Below, piece after piece: positions 21,096 through 57,956 of a stretch of 64,000 bases of DNA. Position 1 is the first letter of the stretch; each line of letters begins with the position of its first letter. Origin of the DNA: an uncultured Thiotrichales bacterium (GTDB taxonomy: Bacteria > Pseudomonadota > Gammaproteobacteria > CAIRSR01); the NCBI GenBank assembly GCA_903881315.1, contig CAIRSR010000219.1, positions 1 to 64,000 of the forward strand, given 5' to 3'. The translations under genes and the position numbers were made by a program. The notes below the pieces were generated by a model. That model saw only the letters and a list, made by a program, of their open reading frames with translations, made no database searches and was not told the origin of the DNA.

Positions 21096-21473
21096 TTAGG
21101 ACGGGATTACCATTGTATCCAATGAATCACCACGTTCAAGCGCACTCAGTAACCAACCTGGCTTACGCCCCTTCCCAGTCCAAGTCTGCGTATGATCAGC
21201 GGGGTTACGATACTTTGGCGGGGACTTGCTTGCACTCTTGCGCCCTTCACCCTTTGCAGCACGCTTTGCGCGGCTAACCTGCAACTCATCTACAGTGAGC
21301 TTATGTACGCTCATCAACTCACGAACCTTCTTCATCACCTCGCGACGTTCCTCGCGTTCTTTCTTGTGGCTATCCTTTTCTTTCTGGATCTCCTTGGCCT
21401 TGAGTTCGCGGGCCAGACGTTTGCTTAACTCTTGTAATTCATCAACAGACAAGTTGTTCAGTTCGATACCCAT
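21096..21473 (-). CDS. H-NS family nucleoid-associated protein
   Basis: A 125-residue H-NS homologue. The N-terminal half is a charged coiled coil for oligomerisation (LSKRLARELKAKEIQKEKD, continuing to about 60). The C-terminal DNA-binding domain is canonical: KYRNPADHTQTWTGKGRKPGW contains the AT-hook-like TWTGKGRKP loop that reads the minor groove of AT-rich DNA. Such proteins silence horizontally acquired genes, which is relevant because two AT-rich accessory modules lie in this window. The ATG at 21473 is preceded by GAGGAAG at about 10 bases. The gene is monocistronic and divergent from the permease pair. Confidence 0.95.
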   Translation of the reverse strand: MGIELNNLSVDELQELSKRLARELKAKEIQKEKDSHKKEREERREVMKKVRELMSVHKLTVDELQVSRAKRAAKGEGRKSASKSPPKYRNPADHTQTWTGKGRKPGWLLSALERGDSLDTMVIPS

Positions 21474-50876: not shown

Positions 50877-51932
50877 ATGCCCGTCACTAACCTGACGTTG
50901 GTGGTTCCGGAACTGCTGCGCGAGACTTCTGTCCGCCTTCCCGCCCTAGAGCGCCTCCTGGCTCGCTCGGATCCACTCCCCTGCGCCGTCGCGGAGGGGG
51001 GTGTCGTCCCCCTGCTCTTCCAGATCTTTGGGATTGCATCGGATCCGCTGCCGATCGCGGCGGTTACTCGTGCCTTTGATAGCCAAGACCCGACACCGGG
51101 CTGGTGGCTGCGCGCCGACCCGGTTCATCTACAGATCAACCAGTCCACGGTGCGGCTGTTCGACCAGCGGGTACTCCGCCTCGCAGCCAACGAGGCCGAG
51201 CGCCTCGCGGCAGAGGTCTCGGCAACAGACCATCCTCCGCCCTCTTCACAACAAGATTTTCGTTTGGAAGCGCTTCACCCCACGCGCTGGTACCTGCCAC
51301 TCGCAACACCCGCCCACATCCAAACGTCGCGTTTGGCCACAGTGCATGGCCAGGACATCCGCCACTATCTACCCGAAGGCAAAGACGGCAAGGCCTGGCA
51401 GCGGTGGTTGAATCACTGCCAGATCCTCCTGCACAACAGCCCCGTCAACGCGGAACGCGAGGCCCGAGGTGAAGCGCCGATAAACAGCGTGTGGCTCTGG
51501 GGCGAGGGGGAGACCCCGAACGTCATCAAGGGCACATTCAGCCACGTCTGGAGCGATGAACCCCTAGCGCTAGGACTGGCCCTCCTCGCGAAGACCCCCT
51601 ACGACGCACAGCCCGAGAACGCAGAGGATTGGCTTTATCAAACCAGCCGTCGTTCGACCGGAAAAGACCTGGTCGTATTACAAGATCTGCTGGATCTGTC
51701 CGAGGCCGCACCGTCCATCAACCCCGCCGAGGATTGGCAAAGCGCACTGAACCGCCTTGAGCAAACGTGGTTCGCCCCCTTGCTCGCCGCCCTGCAAACG
51801 GAAACACTGGCGAGCCTGACCCTGTATCCCTGCCCTGCCCCACCACGCACCATCACCGGGACACAGCTCCGGCGGCGCTGGTGGCGTCGTGGTCGAGCAT
51901 TGGGGGGTTATGTGGTAAAGGTTGCCCTATAG
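50877..51932 (+). CDS. RpfE-type regulatory protein (phosphoglycerate mutase-like, COG4255)
   Basis: A 351-residue protein of the family annotated as RpfE in Xanthomonas (within the rpf quorum region) and loosely related to cofactor-independent phosphoglycerate mutases. Recognisable segments: LTLVVPELLRETSVRLPALE, PGWWLRADPVHLQ, RWYLPL, GKAWQRWLNHCQILLHNSPVN, SVWLWGEG and CPAPPRTITGTQLRRRWWRR. Molecular function is unknown. The ATG at 50877 begins the conserved part; an ATG at 50844 lies inside the hairpin arm. Its TAG stop is one half of a CTATAG palindrome whose other half is the stop of the convergent gene. Confidence 0.82.
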   Translation: MPVTNLTLVVPELLRETSVRLPALERLLARSDPLPCAVAEGGVVPLLFQIFGIASDPLPIAAVTRAFDSQDPTPGWWLRADPVHLQINQSTVRLFDQRVLRLAANEAERLAAEVSATDHPPPSSQQDFRLEALHPTRWYLPLATPAHIQTSRLATVHGQDIRHYLPEGKDGKAWQRWLNHCQILLHNSPVNAEREARGEAPINSVWLWGEGETPNVIKGTFSHVWSDEPLALGLALLAKTPYDAQPENAEDWLYQTSRRSTGKDLVVLQDLLDLSEAAPSINPAEDWQSALNRLEQTWFAPLLAALQTETLASLTLYPCPAPPRTITGTQLRRRWWRRGRALGGYVVKVAL

Positions 51933-54272
51933 AATCCGATCTTCCGCCAGCTTTTTTAGGAACCAGAATCGTTCCGCGTCGTATCTCATGACACTATGAA
52001 GATCAATATTCTTCTGACTCAGCCACTCAAGTACATCCTTTCTCGCAGCATTCTTTCTTCCCTGATCCTTCGCTAGAAGGAGGGTTCCAATCTTCCGAAT
52101 AGTCTCAACACAAAAAGATGGAACAAGACCGCCGCCGATCCGCAAAATATTGTCCTCTAAGGCTCCTAAATAAACCGCGCAATCTGTTATTGGTAGTGGC
52201 ATATCCTCATCTGTGAAACGCAACAAGACGGTCATGTACCAGCTGGTCAATAAACTTCTCTCGATAGAGAGAACCACGTTTTCACGTTCCTCGCTTGTCC
52301 TGAGAATATCGATCGCTTCAACAAGCTTACCCTGGATGCTTCCAAGCGACGGAATCGAATCTGGAATCCTGGCTTTTAGCATCGTACGATGTAGATGGTA
52401 AGTAATGAAAAGCGCCAAACGCTCCGCATTAAAACGACACGGCGCTGCTTTCAGTGGTGCATAGTTGGCGCGATCCCGCTCATAGGCAGCCTCAGCCTGA
52501 TCCAAAAGTTTCACAATGGCCGACAGGTCAGTCACACTACGAGCACTATGGCGCAATGCCACCGCCCGCAGGAAGGCCGCTTCTCTCCCGGAAACACGCT
52601 CCGGCTTATCTCGCTCTGCAATGGCAAGGGCCCGACTAGCAAGGATTGCAGATACCCGCCATCTGTTGTCAGCTGCGAAAAAGAAACCCAACCCCAGAAA
52701 GAACGCATACCCTGAACTATCTTCCTTGTTCAACTGCCTCAATGCCTCATCCCATTGCGCAGCGGTCAGACCTCCCGCTTTAAATCCCCTAAGCACCTGC
52801 TCTATAAAGTTACTCGTTGCGCTGAGACGGTCAAATACCAGCATTGGTGGAGTACGCGAGGGAATATCGTCGGTTGACGATGCCCTGTTCAATCTGGCGC
52901 TGAGCAGACTATAACCACCCTCTGCAGCCACGCTGAAACAATCTTCCCAAGTCTCACGTATGCGTGTATCTATTGCTTCCTTTAACTGCTCAATCACTTT
53001 TACATATTCCTCAACGACACCGCGCTCTCTGGCTGTTGTTAGCTGAATTGCAATAGACGATTGCTGGCGATCTAACACAAGGTTCCTGGTGTAGCTCGAC
53101 CATGCTTGTGTAAGTTTCGCTTTTATATGTGGCCGACTATGTATTAGCGGCGCGACCCACTCTTCTAATTCTCGTTCGGATTTATTCAATAGTTTATCTA
53201 ACGAACCTCCAAAGTCATCTGTCCCTGGATTTAGTTCCCCCAACCAAGTATCGAGCCACTGATCGAATTGAGTATCCACAGAAGTACTAGGCCACATTTG
53301 GTCTGCATCTTCTGGTGGGGCCAAGACGCCAGGTTCCGCCAAATAAGCCCTAGGGTGACGTAAGAATAATTCAGCAAAGCTATGTTCCGATCTCCCCCAA
53401 CACACTTCTTCGGCAGCTGCATACATGGCATGATCGCCGGTAATCAACACAACACGGTGCGTCGCCCCCTTTTCAGCTTCGGATAGAATCAGTTTAGAAT
53501 TGATCCATTCGAGACGAGCGAGAACCTGTGCATCAGATTCTATTAATACCGTATCGTGAGGCATACCTTTTTTCTTACGCAACCTATCAAACCATGCTTC
53601 ACGCAGCAAACGGAATCGTAGACGATCTGCCAAATCAGTCGGGGGCTCCAGGGCGACGCGCAAAACTGTGTCATCTACCATACGATTGTCGATAAGGTAC
53701 TCCGGCGGAGCAATCCTGGCTTCCCGTAACAACAACCCGAATCGGCGAAGCTCAGCATTAGCGCCTTTCTGTCCAAGAAGAAAAAGAGAAATTTGACTGG
53801 CATGCTCTGCAAGCATTTCCGCTGCTTTCGCCGGATCAGTATCAGACATGCTGACGGACTGATGAACTAGCCCCTTGAAGGCATCAAACCCCTCAAGAAC
53901 TTTGACTACTTCCTGTTCCGCATCACGGGACACCGCCGTAAATACATCGTCAACCTCCTCACCCATTGGCGGCAAAATCACCAATGGTAGGTCACCACTT
54001 AACTGATGAAATATAAATTTTGCGAGGGCCTCACCAAGAGCAATAACTATTTGGGGATCTTCATCCGGGAAAATCTCCGCATAACCCTTTCTACGTTTCG
54101 TGTTAGGAGCCACCACCCACGGGTTTGTGTATAACTTCACAATATCCGTATCAATCGCATGGAGCAACGCACCTCCCCGCGCCACAAGAATTCGGTCTCG
54201 ACGACGCGGGATCAGCCATCGCCGCTGCTCTGCAGCGGAACGAACATAGGATGCGAGATCATTTTGGGTCAT
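51927..54272 (-). CDS. Large protein with PIN-like N-terminal signature, unknown function
   Basis: A 781-residue soluble protein I do not recognise as a whole. The N-terminal third has features of a PIN-type nuclease: HAIDTDIVKLYTNPW at about 38-52 (first Asp cluster, cf. hhDTNhh), an internal LIESDAQVLARLEW, and RVVLITGDHAMYAAAEEV (cf. hhTxDxxh), with an insertion between. The rest is helical; residues about 530-680 look TPR-like (FFFAADNRWRVSAILASRALAIAE). No membrane segment. It is the last gene of a three-gene operon, each overlapping the next by ATGA. The region is AT-richer than flanking core genes, suggesting transfer. Possible role: RNA- or DNA-cleaving effector of a defence or stress system; this is inference. 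Confidence 0.7.
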   Translation of the reverse strand: MTQNDLASYVRSAAEQRRWLIPRRRDRILVARGGALLHAIDTDIVKLYTNPWVVAPNTKRRKGYAEIFPDEDPQIVIALGEALAKFIFHQLSGDLPLVILPPMGEEVDDVFTAVSRDAEQEVVKVLEGFDAFKGLVHQSVSMSDTDPAKAAEMLAEHASQISLFLLGQKGANAELRRFGLLLREARIAPPEYLIDNRMVDDTVLRVALEPPTDLADRLRFRLLREAWFDRLRKKKGMPHDTVLIESDAQVLARLEWINSKLILSEAEKGATHRVVLITGDHAMYAAAEEVCWGRSEHSFAELFLRHPRAYLAEPGVLAPPEDADQMWPSTSVDTQFDQWLDTWLGELNPGTDDFGGSLDKLLNKSERELEEWVAPLIHSRPHIKAKLTQAWSSYTRNLVLDRQQSSIAIQLTTARERGVVEEYVKVIEQLKEAIDTRIRETWEDCFSVAAEGGYSLLSARLNRASSTDDIPSRTPPMLVFDRLSATSNFIEQVLRGFKAGGLTAAQWDEALRQLNKEDSSGYAFFLGLGFFFAADNRWRVSAILASRALAIAERDKPERVSGREAAFLRAVALRHSARSVTDLSAIVKLLDQAEAAYERDRANYAPLKAAPCRFNAERLALFITYHLHRTMLKARIPDSIPSLGSIQGKLVEAIDILRTSEERENVVLSIERSLLTSWYMTVLLRFTDEDMPLPITDCAVYLGALEDNILRIGGGLVPSFCVETIRKIGTLLLAKDQGRKNAARKDVLEWLSQKNIDLHSVMRYDAERFWFLKKLAEDRIL

Positions 54273-55297
54273 AGCGTCACATTCTGTCCTGAGTGGGATG
54301 TTCTTTTAAATACATTACTCATGTATCCTTTAATCTCCTGCTCCAATTCTATGATTGACATGTCAGCCACTGCATGTTCATAGACTGGCAATTTTGCAGG
54401 ACGAGTAAAATCAGGACGATGCAGTTTACTTGCCTGTTCCTTGACGACAATAAACTCACCCGGGTTACTACGAAGACTGATCACAACCTCTACGCCTTTG
54501 TTCTCAAGCCTTAACGGGCTATCCGGTGAAAACAACAGTGCGTCAATTAACGAGTCATCAGGGGATGTTTTCGTAGCTGAGGCATAGGGACTAAGCATAT
54601 CCAGATCGTGCAGAGCAGATTCTAGATTAATGAATCCGATGATTGCAAAAATCCTATGCGCAACACGCATCCTCACCGTACCATCTTTGTCGTAACGAAT
54701 GAATTGTTCAATCAGTTTCTTCCGTAATCCAGGAAGCGCGAGATGCGCCACTAAACCGGCACTATCCACCTGGCACAAAGCAATGAGAGCAGTGCTCGCA
54801 TGTGCCGACTTGAAATTCGCACTACCAACCAACGCTTGAAGACAACGCTTAGCATCCTGTCTACCTGGGGTAGAAAGCCTGGCCACAGTGTACAGTGTCA
54901 GTGCAAACAACCCATCCCTTCCTTCAGGATCTGACTGACCAAAAAAACCATTCCCAATCTTAGCAGCCAACACGTTGAGAACTGGATAGGCCGAAATGGA
55001 TACAGCAATGGTAAGCAATTGCTCAGCGACCAGAACGTAGCGTACCTGCGGTTCCAGCGAAGACAACACCTGCGCCACCGCCAATTTTAGGTTGTCCCTG
55101 TGATAAGCATTTACGCCATCGGCAAAAGCGCGTAGACCTAAGGCCAATGATCCAGTGCGCAGTATGAGGTGAGCGGCCTCAGGAAAAGCAGCCGGACCAG
55201 CATCTTCCAAAACGTACGACTCGACACCAACCCGCACCCAGCGCTCAAACTGCGCAAGATCCCACATAACTTTCTTCGTTGCTTTAGAATCGTTCAT
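54269..55297 (-). CDS. Helical protein of unknown function, second gene of the PIN-like operon
   Basis: A 342-residue soluble protein, mostly alpha-helical with a leucine/alanine pattern like HEAT or TPR arrays (AAHLILRTGSLALGLRAFAD, VAQVLSSLEPQVRYVLVAEQ, LIALCQVDSAGLVAHLALPG). The last 90 residues change character (VEVVISLRSNPGEFIVVKEQ, IIELEQEIKGYM). No catalytic motif is seen. It begins within the stop of the upstream gene and ends within the start of the PIN-like gene (both ATGA), so the three products are very likely made together. A scaffold or sensor role is a guess. I know of no named family. Confidence 0.68.
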   Translation of the reverse strand: MNDSKATKKVMWDLAQFERWVRVGVESYVLEDAGPAAFPEAAHLILRTGSLALGLRAFADGVNAYHRDNLKLAVAQVLSSLEPQVRYVLVAEQLLTIAVSISAYPVLNVLAAKIGNGFFGQSDPEGRDGLFALTLYTVARLSTPGRQDAKRCLQALVGSANFKSAHASTALIALCQVDSAGLVAHLALPGLRKKLIEQFIRYDKDGTVRMRVAHRIFAIIGFINLESALHDLDMLSPYASATKTSPDDSLIDALLFSPDSPLRLENKGVEVVISLRSNPGEFIVVKEQASKLHRPDFTRPAKLPVYEHAVADMSIIELEQEIKGYMSNVFKRTSHSGQNVTL

Positions 55298-56301
55298 GTT
55301 ACTAATCCAAGTATAGCGCTTCTCAAAAAAACCTTATCCCTTCCCCTAGCAAGACGGTCGGAGAATTTAGTATCATCTGTCAACTCTTTGCGGGAACGCA
55401 CCGTTCGTCCGACTGGGTGAACATTAATATCCTTAATGGAATTAATGGCTATAGAATGACATACCCGTTCAACCCCACCATCAATGACTGCCTCTCCTTT
55501 CTCCAGTTTTGCCAAATCTGTAGCGCACCCCCATGCAGCGTGGCGTTTCCTACCGTCGTCCGGACTCGCCTTGAACCTACGATGCCCCCCTGCATCAATA
55601 GCTGTCGGGCGCCCAGCCAATACAGAAGCCAATACGGAGACATCAAATTCCAGCGCCAGCAGATCCACACCCTCGTCGATATGAATCAATCCAAGCCAAT
55701 CACAAATCCCATCGGCATCACGCTCATGAATAAGCTCACGAATTGAATCACATGTTGTATACCAAAACACTCCGCCGGGACGTCCCAAATGCACACCGCC
55801 CTTAAGACGAGCGGCACGAGCAGATGTTGGTATACCACCAATCATTGTGCGTAACGCGACCCCATCCGAGGTTGTATCGAGTGTAACCGTCCCCAAAAGG
55901 TCGTCTCTCTGGTCTGCCCCGAGAACACTAAAGAAAACCTCTGCACCAACCGTGGTCAGCATGCATCCATCCCCGCCAGAGACTTCATCATCCGTACCCC
56001 ACTTGCAAAGAACACGAAATTCAGGTTTTATACCTAATGATTCGAGATCGGGATAGGAGATGCACAGCTTCGCCCAGTAATCAGGATCCAACTTCAATAG
56101 ATCTAATGTTGCAAACAGCGGATCCGGATCCACCAGAATCGGTGGCGTGTTTTCCACAATGGGTAGCGCATTACGCCACCACAAAAAGAACTCACGGATC
56201 TCATCTCGCTTCAAGAGCGAGTCTTCATGACAATCCACAAAATTCCACAACACGATATGTCCGCGTGGATCGGAAAAAAGGCGATCGATCAGTTCGTGCA
56301 T
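55294..56301 (-). CDS. Protein of unknown function, first gene of the PIN-like operon
   Basis: A 335-residue soluble mixed alpha/beta protein. Distinctive segments: HIVLWNFVDCHEDSLLKRDE, GGVHLGRPGGVFWYTTCDS, WLGLIHIDEGVDLLALEFDV and SPDDGRKRHAAWGCATDLAK. No family match comes to mind. I chose the ATG at 56301 because AGGA lies 6 bases upstream; a longer frame starts at 56379 without a good Shine-Dalgarno. It opens the operon and lies 284 bases from the divergent folC gene, so its promoter is presumably in that gap. Confidence 0.66.
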   Translation of the reverse strand: MHELIDRLFSDPRGHIVLWNFVDCHEDSLLKRDEIREFFLWWRNALPIVENTPPILVDPDPLFATLDLLKLDPDYWAKLCISYPDLESLGIKPEFRVLCKWGTDDEVSGGDGCMLTTVGAEVFFSVLGADQRDDLLGTVTLDTTSDGVALRTMIGGIPTSARAARLKGGVHLGRPGGVFWYTTCDSIRELIHERDADGICDWLGLIHIDEGVDLLALEFDVSVLASVLAGRPTAIDAGGHRRFKASPDDGRKRHAAWGCATDLAKLEKGEAVIDGGVERVCHSIAINSIKDINVHPVGRTVRSRKELTDDTKFSDRLARGRDKVFLRSAILGLVT

Positions 56302-56434
56302 GCGATATCCTATCAATCTGTGCGTCGATTGGGTGCTTCGTGGCATTATCACCCCATGAAGCGCCACATCATGGCTCATTCATGGGGCACCACGACAGAC
56401 TACCAGCCTAGACTACACACCACAGCCCTCGCAA

Positions 56435-56480: not shown

Positions 56481-56585
56481 CGGGATATGTGAAATGATTG
56501 AAGTGGCCGCAGGGGACAAAAACAATAGACAGTACCCGCAGAAGTGACCGACATAATGTTGAACACCAGAGGAAACTGCAAAACA

Positions 56586-57956
56586 ATGACAAGCAACACC
56601 AGCCTCAATACCATCCTTGCGAAACTCAACACCCTAGCCAGTTTTGAGAAAACGGCAAACCTACTAGACCTAAGCCCACTCGCGAGCATGAAACAATTGC
56701 TACGCGCCCTCGGTAATCCAGAACAACGCTACAAGATTATTCACATTGCTGGCACCAATGGCAAGGGACAAACCGCCGCGATCATCTCAAGGCTATTAAC
56801 CGAAGCAGGATTTCGGGTTGGCCTTTACACCTCACCGACTGTCCTTGATGTGCGGGAAGGGATCCAGATAGACAACGAGTTTATTCGAGAGGACGCCTTC
56901 GTGGCTGGCGGAGAAGCGGTTCTTAATACAATCGAGGAACATCAAGAAGATTTCTGCCCATCCTACTTCGATACCATGACCGCGATTGCCTTCTATGCCT
57001 TCTATCAACAACAGGTAGACTGGGCGGTTATCGAGACCGGAATGGGAGGGACAACCGACTCAACCAATACCGCACCAAAAGAGATCGCGGTCATCACCCC
57101 GATCAGCCACGACCACAGCGCATTTCTCGGCGAATCACTAGAGGATATCGCAGAGAGTAAGCTCGGCATTGTGACGCATGCCATGCCGGTCATCCTCGCA
57201 AGCCAGCAGATTGATATAAAGCAATATATTATCAAGAAACTGCAAGAGCGGGGATGCACCCCCATCGACAGCGATCGTATCACGATAACGCCCCACTACC
57301 CAGAAGATCGCTACACGTTTGTCTTCATCGGGGGCGAGACATTTTCTCTTAGCTCACCCGAGAGAAGGATTCCAAGGCCAACTTTAGAGTGTATCAAAAC
57401 GGCGCTCACCACCATCTCTCTTATCAAAGAAACGACGTTGGATGAACGAAGGCGCTATGCACAGGCTGCCCTTGCGGTTTCCCTACCCGGCAGATTGCAA
57501 CTCTGCCACGAGATAAAATACAAACCGAGCGGGGCAATCCTCCCAACCGTCCTATTTGATGGCGGGCACAATGCAGCAGCGCTCCAGGCACTGCACGAAC
57601 ACCTCCACGTTCTAGGAATAAAAGACTATAGCCTCGTGTTGGGAATGGCGCAGGATAAATTATTAGAACACATCAACGCCCCTTTGCGCACACTCTGCGC
57701 CGAGGCAGGCCGGATTATTCTCTGCCAAGCCTCCTCGGCACGGGCAGCCAGCACCGATGCCTTGCAGCATTTCATCCTCGCACTTTCCCGAGAATCAGAA
57801 AAAAAGATCATCAAAGCGGAATCCGTCCAGGATGCGCTGCACCTGGTCGCTACGGAGCAAGTAGGCGCGGTAATCATCGCCGGATCATTTTATCTACTCC
57901 AAGAGGCTTTTCCCTGGTTTGAACTCCCTCACTCCGTGCCACGGCCAAATTGTTGA
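56586..57956 (+). CDS. folC: FolC-type Mur ligase (dihydrofolate synthase/folylpolyglutamate synthase family)
   Basis: A 456-residue FolC-family ligase: P-loop HIAGTNGKGQTAAII at about residues 50-64, the ligand loop VGLYTSPTVLDVREGIQID, DWAVIETGMGGTTDSTN, PISHDHSAFLGESLEDIAESK and the C-terminal FDGGHNAAALQAL. It adds glutamate to dihydropteroate and/or folates. The sequence is rather diverged from E. coli FolC (e.g. TMTAIAFYAF), so it could be a specialised paralogue. ATG 56586 is chosen with AGAGGA about 10 bases upstream; an in-frame ATG exists at 56544. The 3' end overlaps the convergent deacetylase-like gene by 28 bases. Confidence 0.88.
   Translation: MTSNTSLNTILAKLNTLASFEKTANLLDLSPLASMKQLLRALGNPEQRYKIIHIAGTNGKGQTAAIISRLLTEAGFRVGLYTSPTVLDVREGIQIDNEFIREDAFVAGGEAVLNTIEEHQEDFCPSYFDTMTAIAFYAFYQQQVDWAVIETGMGGTTDSTNTAPKEIAVITPISHDHSAFLGESLEDIAESKLGIVTHAMPVILASQQIDIKQYIIKKLQERGCTPIDSDRITITPHYPEDRYTFVFIGGETFSLSSPERRIPRPTLECIKTALTTISLIKETTLDERRRYAQAALAVSLPGRLQLCHEIKYKPSGAILPTVLFDGGHNAAALQALHEHLHVLGIKDYSLVLGMAQDKLLEHINAPLRTLCAEAGRIILCQASSARAASTDALQHFILALSRESEKKIIKAESVQDALHLVATEQVGAVIIAGSFYLLQEAFPWFELPHSVPRPNC

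Follow-up and report, generated by a model that had tools for sequence, protein, structure and literature searches.

The window analysed here, a stretch of 64,000 nucleotides, harbours three consecutive minus-strand genes that a preliminary description could not name as any system, and the question raised by this locus is what such an operon does and whether, as that description proposed, it is directed against phages. The gene coordinates and overlaps given there were confirmed. Gene A, the first of the operon (55294..56301, minus strand), encodes 335 residues, gene B (54269..55297, minus strand) 342 residues and gene C (51927..54272, minus strand) 781 residues, with ATGA at both the A/B and the B/C junction creating 4-bp overlaps. 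As the longest ORF in shuffled operon segments did not exceed 164 aa, none of the three is a product of chance. An alternative ATG for A lies upstream at 56379 and would yield a protein of 361 aa; no ribosome-binding site is visible there. Judged by sequence, the 335-aa start is the better choice, because AGGA, a plausible ribosome-binding site (56308..56311, minus strand), precedes it with a 6-base spacer and because the A homologue at locus L028 has the same start.

The operon is set apart from its surroundings by composition. Its GC content is 0.491 compared to 0.561 for the window, lower than in every 4450-bp stretch sampled there, and its genes have a GC3 of 0.45–0.46 against 0.57–0.71 for five neighbouring genes, so the earlier remark that the block is AT-richer than its flanks holds. 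An H-NS-like gene is indeed encoded in the window (21096-21473). The neighbours of the operon are ordinary genes, with no defence island around it, and no tRNA, Rfam RNA, terminator or flanking direct repeat was found at the operon as a mark of an insertion site. Its reported position between the core genes rpfE and folC is correct with a reservation about the latter. The FolC-like Mur ligase at 56544-57956 has its best counterpart (52% identical) in a congener, where the neighbourhood is different, and the congener genome carries a second FolC-like gene besides this counterpart; the flanking gene may be a paralogue and not the canonical folC.

No convincing match to Pfam, NCBIfam, PADLOC or PDB sequences was obtained for A, B or C, either with single sequences or with alignments, in keeping with the initial failure to name a system. 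Matches of the triad proteins to Cas8g (E 0.005), lantibiotic dehydratase and CAP repeats were within noise and were dismissed as chance. A description of the A-B-C triad was likewise not found in the open-licence papers searched.

The N-terminal domain of C (residues 33-300; 53373..54176, minus strand) can be assigned as a PIN domain with high confidence. Among 17 homologues of C, reaching down to ~15–20% identity, ten positions are invariant, including D41, E106 and D247, and the patterns around these acids and D280 (hhhYxVDT[DN]V, P.....E, DA..LA and R.VLhTgD) represent PIN motifs I–IV. Counts at the individual motifs were made on these 17 homologues plus three added later. D41 in motif I (codon 54150..54152, minus strand) is Asp in all 19 homologues that cover it and aligns with the Asp of the VapC ‘DTN’; distant members read VDTN or CDAN at this point, a hydrophobic strand ending in Asp. 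E106 in motif II (53955..53957, minus strand) is Glu in 20/20, and hhalign pairs it with the Glu in motif II of VapC; D247 in motif III (53532..53534, minus strand) is Asp in 20/20, within the DA..LA context. The motif IV position, D280 (53433..53435, minus strand), is variable, with Asp in 12/20, Asn in one and Ser or Ala in the others. Of the two Asp clusters that had been put forward as PIN marks, HAIDTDIVKL therefore contains an invariant acid (D41), whereas the Asp of VLITGD (D280) is conserved in only 12/20, and the other two invariant acids, E106 and D247, lie outside both clusters.

Profile comparison and modelling agree with this assignment. When the profile of the C N-terminal region was aligned by hhalign to that of 26 VapC-type PIN proteins taken from related genomes, the score was 25.7, compared to at most 13.0 for 50 column shuffles and 9.8 for the reversed profile. 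The full-region alignment placed D41 and E106 on VapC motifs I and II unprompted; with the second half of the region alone D280 landed on motif IV, but the score was at shuffle level. The AF2 model of C (pLDDT 75, pTM 0.53) has the element order beta-alpha-alpha-beta-alpha...alpha-beta-alpha, which is the PIN order, with a core pLDDT mostly of 70-90; motifs II and III are predicted to be separated by a helical insertion of ~120 residues. The C-terminal part (residues 504-780; 51933..52763, minus strand) is modelled as a TPR-like helical body, in which most helix blocks reach a pLDDT of ~70-95 and W538, E564, R613 and E617 are invariant. Foldseek searches of the model against PDB and BFVD returned mainly TPR-type helical-repeat proteins, the best at E 4.5e-3 and none at E<0.001; no PIN protein was among the matches listed, the TPR part being dominant. 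The earlier proposal, in which a PIN nuclease is attached to a TPR body, is supported by the invariant acids, the hhalign result against VapC, the AF2 order and the Foldseek TPR matches, and a structure lacking the PIN fold, which would have spoken against it, is not what the model, the profile alignment and the invariant acids favour. We consider the predicted nuclease activity of C likely.

Gene B has no recognised domain. Its product appears, to judge by its sequence, HEAT-like and helical, its homologues occupy the same position in the triad, and we regard it as probably a helical adaptor, close to the helical scaffold first envisaged. The A family retains an invariant set of residues consisting of N46, W206, LGL, PT, R268, WG, DG and E304 (361-aa numbering), and conservation of this strength suggests that A carries a pocket or active site. 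The protein may act as a sensor or regulator. AF2 modelling, proposed earlier as a check on all three proteins, was informative for C, where it gave the PIN element order, and gave for A a model too poor for use (pLDDT 42).

Co-conserved homologues of the three genes were found, and they reveal the triad as one unit. A-B-C is complete at 15 loci, A having homologues at each of these, and the order is identical everywhere; at the A/B junction the genes overlap at 12 loci, touch at two and are separated by a 45 bp gap at one. A, B and C have diverged in step with one another (Mantel r 0.914, 0.930 and 0.959; 0/2000 permutations). Of 399 Pseudomonadota genomes, 12 contain C and 13 contain A; the two occur together in 10, compared to ~0.4 expected, and the 10 include one genome (G036) in which A ends one contig and B-C begin another. 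Two genomes hold reduced forms. In G002 only the C-terminal half of C is left, the PIN half being missing, and G065 (locus L130) has A together with a B of increased size, but C is not found nearby. At the latter locus (L130:7014-9710) B reaches 521 aa through an extra C-terminal part, and either the nuclease was lost or a replacement effector has been fused to B.

The distribution of the operon is sparse and crosses phyla. The 15 complete loci belong to Pseudomonadota (many of them Magnetococcales), Nitrospirota and one acidobacterial MAG, and GTDB contigs with C homologues came from an acidobacterial MAG, Magnetobacterium casense and a zetaproteobacterial MAG. Homologues of C occur in 9/48 genomes of the class that includes Magnetococcales, a class label inferred via identical contigs, and in 2/369 genomes of the window's own class; around genome G377 they occur in 4/385 genomes of its class and 6/299 of its order. 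One further weak match, in G1190 (L082), was rejected as false. For A, B and C alike the closest relative is the acidobacterial MAG (L028), which is of another phylum, and one genome (G057) carries two divergent copies. The searched plasmids, phages and viral contigs contained no homologue. Vertical inheritance at the same locus, which would have marked a housekeeping role, was not observed: the operon is missing in all three sampled members of the family, one of them of the same genus, and the trmD/rpfE regions of these three run into other genes wherever the contig is long enough to show it. Their lack of the operon implies that it is mobile and not housekeeping. A-B-C is a horizontally mobile, conserved and uncatalogued three-gene module.

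Whether the module serves defence can be approached through its neighbourhoods and through the partners of C. Distant C homologues at L024 and L052 follow an FMO-like protein whose first ~260 residues match the Lamassu protein LmuA (E ~1e-47), which indicates partner exchange. In these loci (L024:1387-6610 and L052:6291-11370) the LmuA/FMO-like protein, a middle protein and then the C homologue form a sister three-gene arrangement, which suggests a second branch of systems built on the same PIN-TPR core. The middle protein may be trypsin-like and possibly degenerate, as read from a GDAG-type motif in L024, with no Pfam support. The L024 island also contains an integrase, a resolvase, a PDC-S31 protein and an SMC-like ATPase. 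At L055 (island at L055:201-13506) the triad is flanked by two TIR-DnaB genes and TIR-GmrSD on one side and by a Macro/TIR-like gene on the other; the latter lies upstream of the A homologue at a distance of 25 bp and is possibly a fourth operon gene at this locus. The joining of TIR to a DnaB-type helicase is unusual in itself.

Most of the triad loci found have ordinary neighbours, however, and a PADLOC scan at E<=1e-10 detected 51 families in 102 neighbour proteins from 18 loci compared to 41 in 101 proteins of random regions, a control that was drawn largely from the same genomes and also contained Cas9 and DarTG. A clear excess of defence genes near C over random regions was thus not seen at these 18 loci. 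With random regions about as rich in defence genes, the neighbourhood argument remains anecdotal at this sample size and is no proof. The expected clustering with defence genes accordingly finds support in the islands at L024 and L055 and no clear support in the overall counts. Taking together the sparse mobile spread, the predicted toxic nuclease with dedicated partners, the partner exchange and these two islands, we judge that A-B-C probably serves defence, with considerable room for doubt. From the preliminary interpretation, the unrecognised mobile three-gene unit, the PIN-TPR protein and a probably helical B stand, whereas phage defence is not established.

Comparison with described systems shows the operon to resemble several of them, with differences from each. 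The PIN domain is the classic VapC toxin fold, and C resembles VapC in its PIN motifs, I and II being aligned by profile and IV being placed by it at a shuffle-level score. It differs from VapBC in that C comprises 781 aa, including a helical insertion and a TPR body, in an operon of three genes (335, 342 and 781 aa), and no VapB-type or other DNA-binding antitoxin family was matched by A, B or C in Pfam, NCBIfam or PADLOC. A likeness to Lamassu of the LmuA-FMO type is given by the sibling loci L024 and L052, which pair the C homologue with an LmuA-matching N-terminal region; there, however, the LmuA-like protein occupies the place that A-B has in the window, and PADLOC matched neither LmuA nor the SMC-like LmuB in the window operon. 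MoxR-vWA ternary systems (Kaur et al. 2020, PMC7159879) share a three-component conflict logic with exchangeable parts; A, B and C lack any Pfam match to a MoxR AAA+ ATPase or a vWA domain and are in this unlike them. With their defining features missing from A-B-C, identity with VapBC, Lamassu and MoxR-vWA systems was rejected.

Among published concepts the nearest is the TPR-GreA/B-C-PIN protein (Kaur et al. 2021, eLife, PMC8195603), in which variable effector, TPR, GreA/B-C and PIN follow one another and which has only a few conserved genes next to it. It shares with A-B-C a large protein of TPR and divergent PIN, a predicted counter-invader role and exchangeable partners or effectors. In gene C, by contrast, the PIN domain is N-terminal (33-300) and the TPR body C-terminal (504-780), which reverses the order, and the window has a fixed three-gene operon with two dedicated partner genes. 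No GreA/B-C domain was matched in Pfam at E<=1 in A, B, C or the scanned homologues. Given the lack of a GreA/B-C match, the reversed domain order and the three-gene unit, this identity was rejected as well. Experiments on two phage-defence systems, DS-3 and DS-5 (DefensePredictor, Science 2026, PMC13092281), demonstrate that PIN ribonucleases can serve in defence, and protection requires the PIN catalytic residues; DS-3 is a single protein with the PIN domain split between its ends, and DS-5 combines PIN with a DUF5830/AcrIF4-like partner. These descriptions set both apart from the architecture of A-B-C. The operon works like a PIN-nuclease conflict system, yet we assign it to none of the systems compared.

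As to how it might work, the existence of the operon, the joint conservation of its genes, their scattered occurrence and the PIN motifs are directly supported, and on this basis we lean slightly towards a horizontally mobile, self-contained conflict operon that acts against invaders, most likely phages, by the following mechanism. C would be the effector, a metal-dependent PIN ribonuclease with D41, E106 and D247, plus D280 or a substitute, mounted on a TPR body; B would be a helical adaptor binding this body, and A a regulator or sensor. Produced together through translational coupling, the three proteins would assemble into a single complex that keeps the nuclease inactive. We infer that an infection cue, relayed via A-B, could free the nuclease to cut RNA, leading to growth arrest in the manner of abortive infection.

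The same components could be read as an addiction (toxin-antitoxin-like) or selfish maintenance module, in which a PIN toxin, C, is restrained by A and B and its loss is made costly, with no dedicated phage sensing. This would suit the VapC-type fold of C, and the loci with A and an extended B without C (G065, L130) or without the PIN half (G002) look as if the toxic part had been lost first. An addiction module of three genes encoding large proteins, with no recognisable DNA-binding antitoxin and no plasmid copies, would nevertheless be atypical, and we hold this reading to be rather unlikely, noting that the line between it and abortive infection is partly semantic. Unlikely, too, is an accessory function outside defence, such as regulated RNA processing or a stress response, that is useful to sediment or magnetotactic bacteria and has spread horizontally. 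The many matches in Magnetococcales and Magnetobacterium, the ordinary neighbours at most triad loci and the PADLOC counts of 51 versus 41 families speak for it. Against it stand the very sparse spread, the absence from near relatives, the genome that carries two divergent copies, and the relatives that have FMO/LmuA-like proteins or TIR effectors as companions.

That C is no nuclease, its PIN-like N-terminal fold serving for binding and its acids being structural, seems very improbable: replacement of D280 in 8/20 homologues would fit this reading, whereas motifs I, II and III remain invariant even at the ~15-20% identity of these proteins. Variation at the fourth site is also known among active PIN nucleases. 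Returning to the conflict operon proposed above, we suggest tentatively, and with slightly more doubt than belief, that it belongs to an undescribed class of immune systems, which spans at least three phyla and is common among magnetotactic bacteria, and in which a PIN-TPR core is combined with two exchangeable upstream partners, being either A-B or an FMO/LmuA-like protein and a possibly trypsin-like protein. The implication, if this is true, is that current catalogues have entirely missed a multi-gene immune family, whose three parts form a complex, whose catalytic site can be named, and which has a sister branch with an FMO-like effector in the place of the partners. The A family, through its conserved residues, may be a new sensor or enzyme.

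Several arrangements near A-like or C-like genes are recorded here as observations in their own right. The draG-like gene adjoining A in L020 was not taken as part of the system; with a nifH-like gene in the same locus, it appears to be part of a nitrogenase region close by. Two unrelated genomes have a common pair of small genes near C loci (L015:10021-11567 and L052:1567-3021), one of them 38% identical and the other with a GSGGHN motif, perhaps mobile-element cargo. At L132:131-2625 a weak A-like protein (E ~3e-9) precedes a protein of 535 aa that is helical/TPR-like and lacks PIN motifs; this may be a different variant. Lastly, L081:7384-12460 encodes a 545-aa HTH-type protein and then a 1145-aa C-like protein, perhaps one more variant, in which the partner is a different one.
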